Origin: Leeuwenhoekiella blandensis MED217
Lineage (GTDB): Bacteria > Bacteroidota > Bacteroidia > Flavobacteriales > Flavobacteriaceae
Direction of reading: 5' to 3'
Assembly (NCBI RefSeq): GCF_000152985.1
Contig: NZ_CH672395.1
Coordinates: 831,778-895,777, forward strand
Length of the DNA: 64,000 nt
Under the pieces are notes generated by a model. That model was given only the letters and a program-made list of their open reading frames with translations, was not told the origin of the DNA and did no database searches. The translations under genes were made by a program, and so were the position numbers. Below, piece by piece: positions 42,964 to 49,186 of the stretch (its first letter is position 1; each line of letters starts with the position of its first letter).

Positions 42964-43050
42964 CAGGTAAAGATAGGGTATGTGTTAATAAGTGCTTTAA
43001 GTGGTTAAAAAAGTAGGAGGTATATCGATGAAAATATATATCTGAAATTG

Positions 43051-43058
43051 TACTTTTG
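43051..43058 (+). promoter_or_regulatory. -7 box of gcvP
   Basis: TACTTTTG lies 28 nt before the ATG at 43087 and falls inside the longer frame that opens with TTG 43048. It therefore favours the ATG start. No good TTG is seen at the -33 distance. Confidence 0.55.
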
Positions 43059-43086
43059 CGCCATTCTAAACACACATAAATTGCAT

Positions 43087-45939
43087 ATGAGAACAGATGT
43101 TTTTTCACTAAGACACATTGGTCCAAGACCTGAGGAGAAAGAGGAGATGTTAAAAGCGATCGGGGCAGAAACTATAGATCAATTGATCTATGAGACCTTA
43201 CCTGATGGAATTAAATTGAAAAAAGCCCTTGATTTGGAGCCGGCGCTTAGTGAGTATGAGTATGCCACGCACATCAATGCTTTGGCCAATAAAAACAAAC
43301 TGTTTAAAACCTACATTGGTTTAGGATACCACGAGTCTAAAATCCCTGCGGTTATTCAGCGTAATATTTTAGAGAATCCGGGTTGGTACACAGCCTACAC
43401 GCCGTATCAAGCGGAGATTGCTCAAGGTCGTCTTGAAGCTTTATTGAACTTCCAGACAATGATTAGTGATCTGACCGGGATGGAACTTGCTAATGCCTCA
43501 TTACTTGATGAGTCTACCGCAGCGGCAGAGGCGATGACGCTACTCGCAGCAGTTCGCAGCCGAGCTCAGAAAAAGAACGAAGTGGTTAAATTCTTTGTTG
43601 ATAAAGAAGTTTTACCACAAACCTTATCTGTATTAGAAACACGAGCGCTTCCGGTAGGTGTAGAGTTGGTAATAGGTAATCCGCAAGAATTTGACTTTAG
43701 TTCAGAATTCTTTGGAGCCTTGTTACAATACCCTTCAGCATCAGGTGAAGTTCACGATTATGCCGGATTTATTGCTAAAGCTAAAGAAGCAGATATCAAA
43801 GTTGCTGTTGCGGCAGATATTATGAGCTTGGTGCTTTTAGAATCACCGGGGCATTTAGGCGCAGATGTTGTGGTTGGTACTACCCAGCGTTTCGGAATTC
43901 CGTTAGGATACGGTGGGCCGCACGCTGCTTATTTTGCGACACGTGAGGAATATAAAAGAAATATCCCGGGGCGTATCATTGGGGTGACCAAAGATCGCAA
44001 TGGAGACCGTGCGTTACGTATGGCGCTTCAAACCCGAGAGCAACATATCAAGCGCGATAAAGCGACTTCAAACATTTGTACAGCTCAAGTACTTCTTGCT
44101 GTTATGGCAGGGATGTATGGGGTGTATCACGGACCAAAAGGTCTTGAATATATCGCGACCAAAATTCAACGTACTGCAGCAACCCTTGCCGATGCGTTAG
44201 AAAATTTAGGATTGTATCAGCTGAATTCTGCTTATTTTGATACCATTCGAGTAAAAACAGATGCGGCAACAGTGCGCAAGTATGCAGAAGCAAATGAGAT
44301 CAACTTCTACTATCCGGATGCTGAAACCGTTTCAATTGCGGTAAACGAAGCGACAAGCCTTTCTGATCTTAATAAAGTTATTTCCGTTTTTGCTGAAGCT
44401 TTAGGTAAAGAATTCACGCATTTAGAAGCTTTGGTTGACGAGATTACGATCCCGGAAGCTTTAGGTCGTAAAACAGAATTTATGACCAACGAGGTGTTTA
44501 ACAGCTATCATTCTGAAACGGAGTTGATGCGTTACATCAAGCGTTTAGAGCGTAAAGATCTTTCGTTAAATCACAGTATGATCTCGTTAGGATCGTGTAC
44601 GATGAAGCTGAATGCTGCTGCCGAAATGCTTCCGCTAAGTGATGCGCGTTGGGGCGGAATTCACCCGTTTGTGCCGGTAGAACAAGCCGAAGGATATCAA
44701 ACGGTTCTTAAAAAATTAGAAGATCAACTAACCGAAATTACCGGTTTTGCAGGAACAAGTCTTCAGCCTAATTCCGGAGCGCAAGGAGAATATGCAGGAT
44801 TGATGGTGATTAAAGCCTACCACGAAAGTAGAAATGATCATCATAGAAATATTTGCTTAATTCCATCTTCTGCACACGGGACAAACCCTGCAAGTGCCGT
44901 GATGGCCGGGATGCAGGTAGTAGTAACCAAAGCTACTGAAGCAGGAAACATCGACGTTGACGATCTTCGTGAAAAAGCTGAAAAATATAAAGATAACCTT
45001 GCTGCCTTGATGGTGACTTATCCATCAACACACGGAGTTTATGAAAGCGCGATTCAAGAAATTACTTCGATCATTCACGAGAATGGTGGTCAGGTGTATA
45101 TGGATGGTGCCAATATGAATGCGCAGGTTGGTTTGACCAATCCAGGGAAAATTGGTGCCGATGTTTGTCACCTTAACTTGCATAAAACCTTTGCAATTCC
45201 TCACGGTGGTGGTGGACCAGGCGTAGGACCTATTTGTGTGGCAGAGCAGCTGGTTCCGTTTTTACCAACGAACCCGGTGATCAAGACCGGAGGCGAACAA
45301 GCGATTTCTGCGATTTCTGCAGCACCTTGGGGATCTTCTTTAGTGTGTTTGATCAGTTATGCCTACATCAAAATGCTAGGCGCAGACGGACTGAAACAAT
45401 CTACGGAAGCTGCCATTCTAAATGCCAACTATATCAAAGAGCGTTTAAAAGGTGCTTTTGAAGTATTGTATTCTGGTGAAAAAGGACGTGCGGCTCACGA
45501 GATGATCATCGATTGTCGTCCATTTAAAGATAATGGGATCGAGGTGGTTGATATCGCTAAGCGTTTAATTGATTACGGTTTTCATTCGCCTACGGTATCT
45601 TTCCCGGTTGCAGGAACAATGATGATCGAGCCTACAGAGAGTGAAAGCAAGCAGGAGTTAGATCGTTTTTGTGATGCAATGATCAGTATTAGAAAAGAGA
45701 TCGATCAGGCAACTGCAGATAATGATAATAACGTGCTTAAAAATGCACCGCACACGATGCATATGTTGACTGCTGAAACTTGGGATTTACCGTATACGCG
45801 CCAGCAAGCGGCTTATCCGCTGGAGTATGTTGCAGATAACAAATTCTGGCCTTCTGTACGTCGAGTAGATGATGCTTACGGGGACCGAAACCTAATCTGT
45901 ACCTGTGCTCCAATTGAAGAATATATGGAAGAAGCGTAG
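43087..45939 (+). CDS. gcvP: Glycine dehydrogenase (aminomethyl-transferring), P protein
   Basis: A 950-residue single-chain P protein of the glycine cleavage system; it decarboxylates glycine with PLP and passes the aminomethyl group to the H protein. The two homologous halves are visible. The PLP lysine is in LNLHKTFAIPHGGGGPG (about residue 700), and SLGSCTMKLNAAAEM and SSAHGTNPASAVMAG are conserved segments. Start MRTDVFSLRHIGPR is the normal family start, against the longer frame at 43048. The T and H protein genes are not nearby. A hairpin terminator follows. Confidence 0.96.
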   Translation: MRTDVFSLRHIGPRPEEKEEMLKAIGAETIDQLIYETLPDGIKLKKALDLEPALSEYEYATHINALANKNKLFKTYIGLGYHESKIPAVIQRNILENPGWYTAYTPYQAEIAQGRLEALLNFQTMISDLTGMELANASLLDESTAAAEAMTLLAAVRSRAQKKNEVVKFFVDKEVLPQTLSVLETRALPVGVELVIGNPQEFDFSSEFFGALLQYPSASGEVHDYAGFIAKAKEADIKVAVAADIMSLVLLESPGHLGADVVVGTTQRFGIPLGYGGPHAAYFATREEYKRNIPGRIIGVTKDRNGDRALRMALQTREQHIKRDKATSNICTAQVLLAVMAGMYGVYHGPKGLEYIATKIQRTAATLADALENLGLYQLNSAYFDTIRVKTDAATVRKYAEANEINFYYPDAETVSIAVNEATSLSDLNKVISVFAEALGKEFTHLEALVDEITIPEALGRKTEFMTNEVFNSYHSETELMRYIKRLERKDLSLNHSMISLGSCTMKLNAAAEMLPLSDARWGGIHPFVPVEQAEGYQTVLKKLEDQLTEITGFAGTSLQPNSGAQGEYAGLMVIKAYHESRNDHHRNICLIPSSAHGTNPASAVMAGMQVVVTKATEAGNIDVDDLREKAEKYKDNLAALMVTYPSTHGVYESAIQEITSIIHENGGQVYMDGANMNAQVGLTNPGKIGADVCHLNLHKTFAIPHGGGGPGVGPICVAEQLVPFLPTNPVIKTGGEQAISAISAAPWGSSLVCLISYAYIKMLGADGLKQSTEAAILNANYIKERLKGAFEVLYSGEKGRAAHEMIIDCRPFKDNGIEVVDIAKRLIDYGFHSPTVSFPVAGTMMIEPTESESKQELDRFCDAMISIRKEIDQATADNDNNVLKNAPHTMHMLTAETWDLPYTRQQAAYPLEYVADNKFWPSVRRVDDAYGDRNLICTCAPIEEYMEEA

Positions 45940-45957
45940 TCTTCTAAAACATAAATT

Positions 45958-45992
45958 AAAAAGCGCCATTCATAACGAGTGGCGCTTTTTTG
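45958..45992. terminator. Bidirectional intrinsic terminator between gcvP and the membrane operon
   Basis: AAAAAGCGCCA pairs with TGGCGCTTTTT around an 11-nt loop, followed by T on the plus strand. The A/T flanks allow it to end both gcvP and the convergent gene that stops at 45994. Confidence 0.85.
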
Positions 45993-45993
45993 T

Positions 45994-46434
45994 TTACAGC
46001 AGATCATCATCTAAATACAGTCCAAAAGGAATACAGATAACGAGTGCTGGTAAAGAGCCCATTACAAAACAATAAAGAGGAGAGGCCCACAGCATTGTCA
46101 AGTTTTCTGAAAAGTGTTCAGGATTTATAGAGCAATCATAAATGAAATAAGGGATGTCGAAAATCAACGAGAAGACGAGTAATGACAGGAATGTATAGGC
46201 CAATCCCATCAGTTTAGGATTTCGGCCTCGGCGAATTGATTTTAAGCAAAAAGCACTCGTACCGATACTAACCAAATAATTCAACATGCAGGCTATTAAA
46301 AAGAAGTAAATTATTTTGCTATCAAATACAGTTTTTATTGAATCAAATAAAAAGTGCATCATAGCCAAAAATGAAATAAGAGCAAACGTGCCTAGTAAAA
46401 TACCTCCTTTGATGGCTTTGGATTCAAGTCTCAT
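45994..46434 (-). CDS. Small membrane protein of unknown function (146 aa), third gene of the GbsR-linked operon
   Basis: A 146-residue protein with four predicted membrane helices (about 14-34, 42-62, 74-95, 112-136). No family was recognised. The predicted topology (short loops, an arginine-rich RRGRNP loop) fits an inner-membrane protein. Its start overlaps the stop of the gene upstream by one base. The order regulator, paralogue pair, this gene is the same-strand cluster that carries the TTTCA-N8-TGAAA site. Function unknown. Confidence 0.6.
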   Translation of the reverse strand: MRLESKAIKGGILLGTFALISFLAMMHFLFDSIKTVFDSKIIYFFLIACMLNYLVSIGTSAFCLKSIRRGRNPKLMGLAYTFLSLLVFSLIFDIPYFIYDCSINPEHFSENLTMLWASPLYCFVMGSLPALVICIPFGLYLDDDLL

Positions 46435-46811
46435 TATTCAACAGTATTTAAATGTTGTCTGGATTTTTTTCTTCCTCTAAAGAATAAAAAGATATTAAAG
46501 AAGAGTATCAAGCCTAAATAGATTGTAAAACCACCAATCTTTGAGCTTAGAACTTCGGCTAGATTTTGATAGGTGTTATCAAAACCATAGTCTTGGATTT
46601 CCATAATGAGCAAAGCAAACCCAATATTCAAAAGATAGAATCCTACCTTAAAAAGTCGGTTAGTAGCAAGGGCGATTTCCTCTTTCCCTTTAAAAATATC
46701 TATCATAAATAACCTTCCATTGGTGAACAGGATATTAGATACAAAAAGCGTTAGGGTGATTGTAATGGGTAAATAGATGAGGTAACCGATTAGAATTTTT
46801 GAAGTTTCCAT
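46434..46811 (-). CDS. Small membrane protein of unknown function (125 aa), paralogue of the next gene
   Basis: A 125-residue protein with three membrane segments (about 8-28, 50-70, 90-112). It aligns to the product of 46824-47171: both have TNGRxF after the first helix, then TNRLFKVGFYLLNIGFAL versus TNKLLLAGYYLINIGFVI. The pair arose by duplication. It begins 12 nt after the stop of its paralogue and overlaps the next gene by one base, so all three are cotranscribed. Function unknown. Confidence 0.65.
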   Translation of the reverse strand: METSKILIGYLIYLPITITLTLFVSNILFTNGRLFMIDIFKGKEEIALATNRLFKVGFYLLNIGFALLIMEIQDYGFDNTYQNLAEVLSSKIGGFTIYLGLILFFNIFLFFRGRKKSRQHLNTVE

Positions 46812-46823
46812 AAGTAAGTGATT

Positions 46824-47171
46824 TTAAGAATTAAATAGTTTATTAAATAAATGTGTAATAAAGTAGATGTTGAAATAGTGAAGTGTGGCCAGCAGAAAAA
46901 GTAAGAAGCCTATATACTTGCTTAGTTCGTGTATGATATCAATCGGACTCGTGATCTTAGGCCAACCACTGATAGTCACAATTACAAACCCAATGTTAAT
47001 GAGGTAATAGCCTGCAAGTAGAAGTTTGTTAGTGCGATCTGTAAGGTTATGGTCTTGAACTACATTGAAAATAAATGCTCTTCCATTGGTGTAGCATACT
47101 TTTCCTATATAATAGATGACGCCAATCATTAAAATGAGGTAAACAGCATATGTGAATAAATTATAGTTCAT
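46824..47171 (-). CDS. Small membrane protein of unknown function (115 aa), first gene of the operon
   Basis: A 115-residue protein with three membrane segments and the shared motif CYTNGRAF followed by TNKLLLAGYYLINIGF. It is the first gene of the three-gene operon, and the site TTTCA-N8-TGAAA lies 16 nt before its ATG. The GbsR/MarR-type regulator gene is just upstream on the same strand. Function unknown. Confidence 0.65.
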   Translation of the reverse strand: MNYNLFTYAVYLILMIGVIYYIGKVCYTNGRAFIFNVVQDHNLTDRTNKLLLAGYYLINIGFVIVTISGWPKITSPIDIIHELSKYIGFLLFLLATLHYFNIYFITHLFNKLFNS

Positions 47172-47187
47172 ATCATTATTTTTAAAC

Positions 47188-47205
47188 TTTCAGAAAATAT
47201 TGAAA
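47188..47205. promoter_or_regulatory. Candidate operator of the membrane-protein operon, TTTCA-N8-TGAAA
   Basis: A symmetric site between the regulator gene and the first membrane gene. On the minus strand it reads TTTCAATATTTTCTGAAA and is followed by a TTTAAAA stretch. The same pattern stands before the regulator gene; about 22 of 26 positions agree between the two. Confidence 0.6.
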
Positions 47206-47276
47206 TATATAATTGTGAATGTTTCTGGAAAATTCTTCTCAGCCTGAATTTATTCCATAGAAACCAAAGCTTAGAT

Positions 47277-47783
47277 CTAGGTCATCAGTTTCATGATGGT
47301 TTTAGTGATCCAATTTTCTTTTTGGTTAACGATTTTCTCCAGCATCGTATCTGCTTTGTTTACAAAATCGTGAAGCTCTTGCGTTTTCATTTTAAACTTT
47401 AAAGCTTCCGGACTTTCATCGGTTTCGTCAAAGTTTTTTACGCCTTCTAGAACGCGAAGTGCCGGTTTGATCTCCCGTTTGCTCCGTTCCACAGCAATCT
47501 TGCGGGCCAGGGAATCAACGTCCTGATCAGCTTTAAAATACTCCCGACGCTCACCGGGTTTGTACTCTTTATATACAATGCCCCAGTCAATAAGTCCGCG
47601 TAGGTTCATACTGGCATTACCACGAGAGATCTGCAACTCTTCCATCACATCTTCCATAGAAAGCGAATCTGGAGAGATCATTAATAATGCATGAATTTGC
47701 GCCATGGTTTTATTAATGCCCCATTGCGAACCTAATGCGCCCCAGGTTTGTAAAAATTGTGCTTTTGCTTCGTTGAATTCCAT
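47277..47783 (-). CDS. GbsR/MarR family transcriptional regulator
   Basis: 168 residues from ATG 47781-47783. The winged-helix DNA-binding domain runs about residues 8-90, with the recognition region SMEDVMEELQISRGNASMNL and the wing GIVYKEYKPGERREYF. A helical C-terminal part follows. The GbsR group represses transport genes in response to small ligands such as choline in Bacillus; the ligand here is unknown. The -7 box TATATTTG is only 3 nt before the ATG, and an inverted repeat found also before the next operon overlaps the -33 region. Autoregulation and control of the membrane genes are inferred. Confidence 0.88.
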   Translation of the reverse strand: MEFNEAKAQFLQTWGALGSQWGINKTMAQIHALLMISPDSLSMEDVMEELQISRGNASMNLRGLIDWGIVYKEYKPGERREYFKADQDVDSLARKIAVERSKREIKPALRVLEGVKNFDETDESPEALKFKMKTQELHDFVNKADTMLEKIVNQKENWITKTIMKLMT

Positions 47784-47786
47784 ACT

Positions 47787-47794
47787 CAAATATA
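47787..47794 (-). promoter_or_regulatory. -7 box of the GbsR-type regulator gene
   Basis: On the minus strand TATATTTG is followed by AGT and then the ATG start, so transcription should begin at or very near the start codon. About 19 nt upstream is CTG, within the inverted repeat. Confidence 0.6.
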
Positions 47795-47810
47795 ATTAAA
47801 TATTTTAAAG

Positions 47811-47828
47811 TTTCAGTAATTATTGAAA
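47811..47828. promoter_or_regulatory. Candidate operator upstream of the GbsR-type gene, TTTCA-N8-TGAAA
   Basis: The arms extend to AAGTTTCA/TGAAACTT (47808-47831), a perfect 8-bp inverted repeat with an 8-nt spacer. On the minus strand TTTCAATAATTACTGAAA is followed by CTTTAAAATA, closely matching the site at 47188-47205. It overlaps the -33 region of the regulator promoter. Confidence 0.65.
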
Positions 47829-47925
47829 CTTATTTACTGGTACCGCCAATAGGTATAATTTTTAAAGACTTGATTCGAAATTGAAAACCAGTTTCTAACT
47901 ATTTCTTCAAGGACTTGCAGTGAGG

Positions 47926-47955
47926 TTGTTTACTGCTTTAGTAAAACTATCTTTG
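47926..47955 (+). promoter_or_regulatory. Promoter of the GT4 gene, probably giving a leaderless mRNA
   Basis: TTG (47926-47928), a 19-nt spacer and TATCTTTG (47948-47955) match the consensus exactly. The ATG of the gene starts 5 nt after the -7 box, so the transcript should begin at the start codon. Confidence 0.8.
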
Positions 47956-47959
47956 CGCT

Positions 47960-49186
47960 ATGAACGCATTAATTATAGGTAATGTTTGGCCGGAGCCGGT
48001 TTCGTCTGCGGCGGGAACGCGCATTATGCAACTGCTGGGAAGCTTGCAAGCCCAGGGGTATGCTGTGAGTTTTGCTTGTGCCGCAGGTAAAACGCCCTAC
48101 GCTGAAGACTTGAAGGCGCTAGGTGTACAAACGCACAATATTCAATTGAACAACGCTTCATTTGATGTCTTTATCAAAGAACTCAATCCCGATCTGGTGT
48201 TGTTTGACAAGTTCGTGATCGAAGAGCAATTCGGTTGGCGGGTAAAAGAGCAGTGTCCGGGTGCGCTACGTGTTTTAGAAACGATTGACTTGCACGGCTT
48301 GAGAAAGGGGAGAGAGGCTGCTCTAAAAGCGAATGAAGCCTTTTCTGAAAGGCATTTGCATACCGATTACGCAAAGCGCGAGCTCGCCAGTATCTATCGT
48401 TGCGATCTCTCCTTAATTATTTCGGAAGCTGAAATGCAGTTGCTGCAGGAGTTTTTTAAAGTGCCCGATTCGCAATTGTTGTACTTGCCGTTTATGGTTG
48501 CACCAATTACCTCGGAAGAGCAGCAGGCTTGGAAATCTTTTGAGACGCGGAAGCATTTTGTGACGATCGGGAATTTTAGACACGAACCCAATTGGCTTTC
48601 GGTGCGGTATTTAAAAACGGAAATCTGGCCGCTCATTCGTAAGCAGTTACCGGATGCCGAAATGCGTGTTTACGGTTCGTATCCCGCAGAAAAGCATACG
48701 CAGTTGCATAATCCTAAAGAGCATTTTTATGTTTTGGGCAGAGCCGAAAGCGCGCACGAAGTTATAGAAGAAGCTCGGGTATTACTCGCACCTTTACTCA
48801 CAGGAGCAGGTTTAAAAGGAAAATTACTGGACGCCATGCAATGCGGAACGCCGGCAGTAACGACAAGCGTCGGTGCAGAAGGAATGCACGGCGAACTAGA
48901 CTTCAACGGAAGCGTGGTCGATGATCCTAAAGCCTTTGCAGAAGCTGCAATCGCATTATATAAGGACAAGAATAAATTTGCAGAAGCGCAAGCCAATGGG
49001 GCAATCATTGTAAATCAACGCTTTTCTAAAGAAGAATGGAATTCTGTTTTCAAAAAGCGGCTGAGTGATTTACAAGACAATCTGGAAACCCATCGCCTTT
49101 CAAATTTTACAGGCGCAATGCTTTGGCATCAATCGCTTCAAGCTTCTAAGTTTATGAGTAAATGGATCGAGGAAAAGAATAAATAA
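47960..49186 (+). CDS. Glycosyltransferase family 4-like protein
   Basis: A 408-residue GT-B glycosyltransferase. The N-terminal domain starts ALIIGNVWPEPVSSAAGTR, and the C-terminal nucleotide-sugar domain has HFVTIGNFRHEPNWLSVRY and the GT4 motif VLLAPLLTGAGLKGKLLDAM, followed by PAVTTSVGAEGM. Cytoplasmic, or associated with the inner face of the membrane. No neighbouring polysaccharide genes point to a product. It is convergent with the M3 peptidase, with a shared hairpin between them. Confidence 0.88.
   Translation: MNALIIGNVWPEPVSSAAGTRIMQLLGSLQAQGYAVSFACAAGKTPYAEDLKALGVQTHNIQLNNASFDVFIKELNPDLVLFDKFVIEEQFGWRVKEQCPGALRVLETIDLHGLRKGREAALKANEAFSERHLHTDYAKRELASIYRCDLSLIISEAEMQLLQEFFKVPDSQLLYLPFMVAPITSEEQQAWKSFETRKHFVTIGNFRHEPNWLSVRYLKTEIWPLIRKQLPDAEMRVYGSYPAEKHTQLHNPKEHFYVLGRAESAHEVIEEARVLLAPLLTGAGLKGKLLDAMQCGTPAVTTSVGAEGMHGELDFNGSVVDDPKAFAEAAIALYKDKNKFAEAQANGAIIVNQRFSKEEWNSVFKKRLSDLQDNLETHRLSNFTGAMLWHQSLQASKFMSKWIEEKNK

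Follow-up and report, generated by a model that had tools for sequence, protein, structure and literature searches.

A 64,000-nucleotide stretch of Leeuwenhoekiella blandensis MED217 (contig NZ_CH672395.1, positions 831,778 to 895,777; hereafter the window) carries on its minus strand the gene of a GbsR-type MarR-family regulator (R, 168 aa, 47277..47783), which scores above the Pfam cut-off for MarR_2, followed by an operon for three small membrane proteins: M1 (115 aa, 46824..47171), M2 (125 aa, 46434..46811) and M3 (146 aa, 45994..46434). The dyad TTTCA-N8-TGAAA stands upstream of R (47811..47828) and again upstream of M1 (47188..47205), both on the minus strand. This arrangement raises the question of whether the regulator and the membrane genes form one regulatory unit, and what such a unit might do. 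We consider it likely that R represses its own gene within a small regulon confined mostly to one locus, that this repression is relieved by a ligand that is probably not choline, and that the accompanying genes (the cargo) are switched along with it.

The sections of a 2018 GbsR survey cited here report no consistent gene neighbourhood for the GbsR proteins of Bacteroidetes (PMC6207618). R is of the same phylum and family and very likely falls within that protein set; in contrast to those sections, we find a consistent operator and a consistent set of cargo genes. Our search of the open-access literature returned no paper that connects these genes to GbsR-type regulators from the same phylum. 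On present evidence, we regard the case as evenly balanced that the locus represents a widespread Bacteroidota system, with a leaderless, self-repressing GbsR-type switch, exchangeable small membrane proteins and lipid/redox enzymes, and two functionally distinct operator classes (a promoter-operator and a promoterless form before cargo starts), in which M1 and M2 found a new membrane family that is paired with DCC oxidoreductase-like genes also outside the phylum.

Conservation of the regulator, the operator and the operon

The sites and genes lie where the initial annotation had placed them, with gaps of 27 nt from the operator to the start codon of R and 16 nt to that of M1. The two 26-mers around the sites, which had been put at about 22 shared positions, are identical at 23 of 26. 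A scan for M2 relatives yielded 36 first loci, with the closest relatives outside the window genome in a metagenome-assembled genome labelled Cytophagaceae and in Leeuwenhoekiella. R is found upstream on the same strand in 35 of the 36; among these, the site precedes R in 34 (L017 has no exact site there) and lies between R and the operon in all 35. The remaining locus, L021 of a Pedobacter sp., has no R and a single site. The same picture emerges from a phylum sample of 296 Bacteroidota genomes: M1/M2 relatives occur in 18 genomes after one weak match was dropped, and in 18 of 18 R lies at most 4 kb away on the same contig and strand. Excluded from these counts were G074, the weak match within a 432-aa open reading frame (ORF), and G216, a broken trace. 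Whether the membrane genes stay next to a GbsR gene had been proposed as a check, and apart from L021 they do so in both data sets. M-family matches with in-frame stop codons were seen in G206, G012 and G257.

At an E-value of 1e-3, 124 of the 296 genomes gave a match to R, with a sharp group of 41 at 210 bits or more and the next match at 174 bits. These 41, referred to as R genomes in the following, span ten family labels (f1, f2, f3, f4, f5, f7, f10, f22, f23 and f28). The site check covered 40 of them (G272 was left out): the operator lies within 160 nt before R in 38 and additionally within about 230 nt after R in 29, while 12 of 16000 base-shuffled windows held the site. Since the gene caller missed R in L014, L029, L036, L164, L168, L177, L182 and L183, R or its relative was located by tblastn in these cases, or in the twin locus.

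Counts of the motif within one genome are weak evidence, whereas position and conservation are strong evidence. Two or more TTTCA-N8-TGAAA sites appear in 6 of 100 shuffles of the window, so that the window counts alone do not exclude chance, and the whole genome (4.24 Mb, one contig) holds 27 sites versus 14 for the reversed control. Among the other 25 genomic sites, 24 lie inside called ORFs (mechanically called, at least 60 aa) and one (L062) in a terminator-like hairpin, and therefore the two sites in the window are the only ones in the genome placed as promoter-operators. Random occurrence at unrelated places had been named as a result that would speak against a shared operator; further sites do exist, but they are not placed before genes. 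We reject chance recurrence of the motif on the grounds of position and conservation, even though the window counts by themselves cannot do so. Two of the genomic sites deserve a comment: the one in L053 lies in the last codons of one gene, 13 nt ahead of the next, and the one in L064 lies inside an ORF taken as spurious, the opposite strand reading as coding by eye.

Two classes of operator

The idea of one shared operator is supported, the same dyad being present at both places, but the two sites are not equivalent. We drew 45 sites upstream of R (R-sites) and 55 ahead of cargo genes (O-sites) from the window and from L005-L040, L065-L071 and L073-L082; eight site rows were classed by hand (L014, L029 twice, L036, L066, L070, L077 and L081) and one in-gene site of L036 was left out. 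The half-site reads TTGAAA at 38/45 R-sites and CTGAAA at the other 7, against CTGAAA at 48/55 and TTGAAA at 7/55 O-sites. In the window, the O-type operator before M1 has the CTGAAA form and no -7 box, and the R-type operator also carries CTGAAA.

The classes also differ in the promoter. A TAnnTTTG box follows 15-17 nt downstream at 42 of the 45 R-sites, with a spacer of 18-20 nt between the (T/C)TG of the operator and the box. This is the arrangement of the Bacteroidetes sigma-A promoter, whose consensus is given as TTTG or TTG / TAnnTTTG in the promoter sections of PMC9723704 and PMC6847099. Searching from -250 to +63, we found a TTG/TAnnYTTG (-33/-7) pair at 36/45 R-sites versus 0/55 O-sites. 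In the window, the -7 box of R, TATATTTG (47787..47794, minus strand), lies 16 nt past the operator and 3 nt ahead of the ATG and thus looks leaderless. Such a layout is common to the group: among the 42 box-bearing promoters (45 examined), the ATG of R lies 3-4 nt past the box in 35, exactly 4 nt in 31 of them, and 23-67 nt past it in the remaining 7. Since the same Flavobacterium papers place the box at -12 to -5 (PMC9723704; PMC6847099), the R mRNA is predicted to start on the A of the ATG or a single base away from it. According to the same sections, leaderless mRNAs are few in Flavobacterium, amounting to 5.5% of 890 in F. psychrophilum, and 87% of the predicted leaders in F. johnsoniae are longer than 10 nt (PMC9723704; PMC6847099). 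As a side observation, the Flavobacterium-type loci L028, L032, L122 and L126 have an extra ATG 4 nt past the -7 box and ahead of R, which in the two loci read fully (L028, L032) starts an 11-codon reading frame before R.

O-sites, for their part, lie 16-22 nt from the next called start in 40/55 cases and 2-136 nt in the rest, and common to them are an A/T-rich tract, located 8-15 nt upstream, and GTTTAAAA on the downstream side. A terminator-like hairpin is found just upstream of 7/55 O-sites versus 3/45 R-sites.

A dyad ahead of a cargo start could also act as RNA, namely as an 8-9 bp hairpin that controls translation or read-through. Three of four O-site RNAs indeed fold into a hairpin of 8-9 bp (-6.5 to -7.7 kcal/mol, z-scores of -1.95 to -3.41), but the RNA of L075 forms no such hairpin (z 0.23). 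Moreover, the flanking pair is C-G in 33/55 O-sites and otherwise mostly broken without compensation (A-G 6, C-A 5, A-A 3 and others), the same dyad occurs upstream of the predicted R mRNA start, and positions 45900-48000 gave no Rfam match. With little compensation in the flanking pair, mixed folding and no Rfam match, we rejected the RNA element, which we regard as improbable.

Exchangeable cargo behind the same sites

The initial annotation had pictured a membrane system. That regulator and operon belong together is supported, but R is the constant part, and the cargo, of which the three membrane proteins represent one version, is exchangeable. Where M1/M2 are absent from an R operon, the same sites are often followed by DCC, TIGR01777, DUF2071 or SRPBCC-like genes. 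M1/M2 are missing from 23 R genomes, and longer stretches were read for 20 of them (L151-L170, the cargo of L164 and L168 being completed from further searches of the same loci): a DCC gene is part of the operon in 14, TIGR01777 occurs without DCC in 1, and 5 have no recognised cargo. Above the Pfam or NCBIfam cut-off, the cargo comprises the TIGR01777 oxidoreductase with DUF1731, DCC1-like proteins, DUF2071, a fatty acid desaturase (assigned on the L066 protein), CMAS-like and other methyltransferases, DoxX-like proteins and a luciferase-domain protein. SRPBCC-like cargo proteins match below cut-off only, and several small membrane cargo proteins match no named family. For DUF2071, the relevant part of PMC4520260 describes a relationship to the acetoacetate-decarboxylase-like fold, without the Schiff-base lysine.

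The operator also follows the cargo to other places. The long DCC protein was matched in 21/296 genomes. One of these matches is a broken trace, and the other 20 genomes are all among the 41 R genomes. In 18 of these 20 the gene lies near R (in G210 a stop codon interrupts the frame that was matched); the two on a contig other than that of R both carry TTTCA-N8-TGAAA together with the -7 box, and one of these unlinked copies has in addition a CTGAAA-type site 2 nt ahead of its ATG. A third unlinked operon with site and -7 box (G277, family f2) contains DoxX-like, DUF2071 and methyltransferase genes as well as the gene of a 153-aa protein, which is 60% identical to a cargo protein of the Leeuwenhoekiella nanhaiensis R operon.

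Genome-wide searches of 61 genomes (41 with R and 20 without) for the R-type pattern, defined as the site plus a -7 box at 15-18 nt, gave 47 matches versus 2 in the reversed control: 31 at R, 3 before the unlinked cargo operons and 13 elsewhere. The pattern occurs in 32/41 R genomes versus 2/20 genomes without R; in 31 of the 32 it is found at R, and G126 has it solely ahead of a cargo gene that is not linked to R. An extended site element, searched for in 14 genomes, was matched 13 times across 9 of them and never in the control, and 12 of the 13 matches lie at the R locus (the match in G095 lies outside it), in agreement with the earlier proposal of a self-contained system. In L. blandensis itself the -7 box is present only at the R-site of the window, and the extended element is matched only by the O-site of the window; with one site of each kind, a larger regulon in this genome was rejected. 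Taking these sequence comparisons together, we take the site, R and the cargo to be one regulon, apparently small and mostly self-contained, for which the finding that the site follows the cargo is the strongest evidence.

A conserved factor other than R might bind the site instead, given that binding by R is itself inferred and that two R genomes (G037 and G178) have no site at R. The distribution given above, in which the R-type element tracks R in 32/41 R genomes versus 2/20 without it, makes such a factor very improbable. The next group of R-like regulators also speaks against it, as three of its four loci (L182, L184 and L185) lack the site and L183 has a single one. This second group, L182-L185, was matched at 134-139 bits by tblastn; three of the four regulators precede a 120-125 aa gene of one kind, as judged by eye.

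Proposed mechanism

In the mechanism that we favour, R would bind the dyad TTTCA-N8-TGAAA through its winged helix, presumably as a dimer, as its family and the symmetry of the site suggest. At the R-type site, the second half of the dyad would provide the (T/C)TG where the promoter of R itself has its -33 element; bound R would cover this position, which makes autorepression likely. Transcription of R would start on the first base of the ATG or directly beside it and yield a leaderless mRNA. In the simplest reading, polymerases that start at the R promoter would read through into the operon. The O-type site lies without a recognisable promoter close ahead of the first cargo gene and sometimes of later ones, and R bound there could form a second block, either as a roadblock or in co-operation with the R-type site. 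The unlinked operons, which carry R-type sites with promoters, fit such a role of the O-site. A ligand would then free R, and both R and the cargo would be turned on, the latter consisting of small membrane proteins (M1, M2 and M3 in the window) and elsewhere of enzymes suited to membrane lipids, quinones or thiols.

Alternatively, R may activate the operon from an O-type site over a weak promoter, or act in both ways by repressing itself and activating the cargo. The O-sites are placed right ahead of the cargo genes without a sigma-A -33/-7 pair (0/55), and because they have no -7 box and some of them lie past a terminator-like hairpin (7/55), the operon may need help to start. However, about 16-22 nt ahead of a start codon is an unusual place for an activator, and the three unlinked cargo operons combine R-type sites and a -7 box in a repressor-like geometry. 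Altogether we hold activation to be rather unlikely.

Several observations weigh against autorepression with read-through as proposed here. No promoter is visible at the O-sites, and the hairpin upstream of 7/55 of them argues against simple read-through at these loci. Related operons had been expected to keep the site, which they mostly do, but besides the absence of any site at R in G037 and G178, the second site is absent in 11/40 R genomes, in one of these through a contig end. Five of the 20 longer R loci are without recognised cargo, although L170 is cut short by a contig end and the DCC gene of L162 lies on another contig, and L181 (G178) shows neither a site nor recognised cargo. Of the R-type matches, 13/47 are neither at R nor before known cargo; the one that was read, in G170, lies in the first codons of a gene. 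In addition, the genome counts ignore kinship, so that related genomes do not count as independent. Finally, it is from the family names of the cargo, and from nothing else, that we infer a membrane-protection or membrane-modification response as the function.

With a fixed operator, a defined promoter design and a recurring cargo, the regulators that were left without a process in the 2018 survey gain a testable regulon. It also offers handles on the M1/M2, long DCC, TIGR01777, DUF2071 and small membrane protein families, and brings to light a promoterless class of operator. With knowledge of its ligand, the switch might also be put to use as a tool in Bacteroidota genetics.

Family of the regulator and its putative ligand

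R matches the CudC model at 43.6 bits (E 2.6e-11 over residues 3-114), below the cut-off of 218 for the CudC/GbsR equivalog, and Mj223 (1ku9) with an E-value of 6.6e-16 over residues 4-136. Judged from these matches, R is a GbsR-type MarR regulator in the broad sense, and the MarR/GbsR family suggests that it would be controlled by a ligand. It shares a MarR-type winged helix, a similar size, the likeness to Mj223 and a location beside presumed target genes with GbsR, OpcR, OpuAR and YvaV of Bacillus, as these are described in the portions of PMC6207618 used here. In contrast to these regulators, R has a different gene set with no betaine or Opu genes recognised as neighbours and a cage that is not conserved, and it is predicted to autorepress from a dyad overlapping the -33 element.

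The resemblance to CudC and Mj223 might point to a role in osmoprotection in which R, like GbsR, OpcR and OpuAR, would sense choline or betaine. According to Table 1 of PMC6207618, the choline-responsive GbsR/OpuAR group has an aromatic cage at OpuAR positions 93/94/96/97/100/101. The corresponding post-wing stretch of R in the window, DVDSLARKIAVE, contains no aromatics and is not conserved, aromatic residues being present in some alignment rows only (e.g., L078 and L080); R thus lacks the cage, with positions matched by eye in an alignment that holds no GbsR sequence. Likewise, no genes for betaine synthesis or for Opu or other osmoprotectant transporters were recognised in the R operons read, by eye and by cluster. 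Because the cage is not conserved in R, choline sensing was rejected and the ligand is probably not choline; osmoprotection is, in our estimate, extremely unlikely. Another parallel is CydE, which is reported in PMC6207618 to repress cydAB and to respond to sulfate as its inducer; it is likewise GbsR-type without the cage and has adjacent membrane-protein genes. The difference is that no cydAB was recognised by eye in the R operons read.

Membrane proteins and other putative functions

M1, the first gene product of the operon, and M2 had been called paralogues, and BLASTP agrees (E 3e-10, 31% identity over 65 aa). Seven positions (Y10, N51, Y59, L60, N62, G64 and N106 in M2 numbering) are invariant in 16 M2-type and 12 M1-type sequences, those of the window included, and the structure model of M2 predicts three long helices (mean pLDDT 77, pTM 0.60). 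M3, described as unrelated to the other two, shows no similarity to M2 (BLASTP E 1.9), a comparison that covers M2 only; three of the 36 first loci (L005, L007 and L008) contain M3 relatives. As anticipated, none of the three proteins belongs to a named family, at least by Pfam and NCBIfam above cut-off, and a profile search of solved structures with the M1/M2 sequences gave spurious matches only. A defence system was also considered and rejected: no PADLOC model matched M1-M3, and R had four weak matches, the best being Csa3 (E 0.00018).

Beyond the phylum, a relative of the M family is encoded on a Streptomyces cynarae plasmid (NZ_CP106794.1, L095 12001-12845), 46% identical over 113 aa to a relative from Bacteroidota. 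The M-family gene is directly followed by a DCC/DUF393 gene. The annotation of the stretch, a table of 23 features that may be incomplete, lists no GbsR-type regulator. The same plasmid record has a second M-like place.

The presence of DUF2071 in the cargo brought up a light or carotenoid-linked photo-oxidative response. The DUF2071 gene of L. blandensis ends an operon consisting of a MerR gene with a B12-binding domain and of genes that, from their sequence, we take to be crtI-, crtB- and crtZ-like. Among 120 Flavobacteriaceae genomes, DUF2071 was matched in 45, and 30 loci were examined with 1.5 kb flanks: none (0/30) adjoins relatives of those crt genes, 1/30 lies in an R operon, and inspection by eye of the unnamed genes downstream of R revealed no photolyase. 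Suggested by one operon and unsupported by the 30 DUF2071 loci, the link to light was rejected and appears quite improbable. The MerR/crt-like/DUF2071 operon itself is located at L107 4850-9237 (C1:2665849-2670236 of the same genome), and a chance TTTCA-N8-TGAAA site lies inside its DUF2071 gene.

Genomic surroundings

In many of the 36 first loci the R operon stays near the same genes, which we presume to be gcvP, an M3-type peptidase gene, an ECF-sigma-like pair and a UbiA-like gene; this was noted from 43048-45939 of the window and from the flanks of the related loci. Between the end of the operon and gcvP, a terminator-like inverted repeat (45958..45991, no strand assigned) with A and T runs at its flanks is seen in the sequence, unscored.

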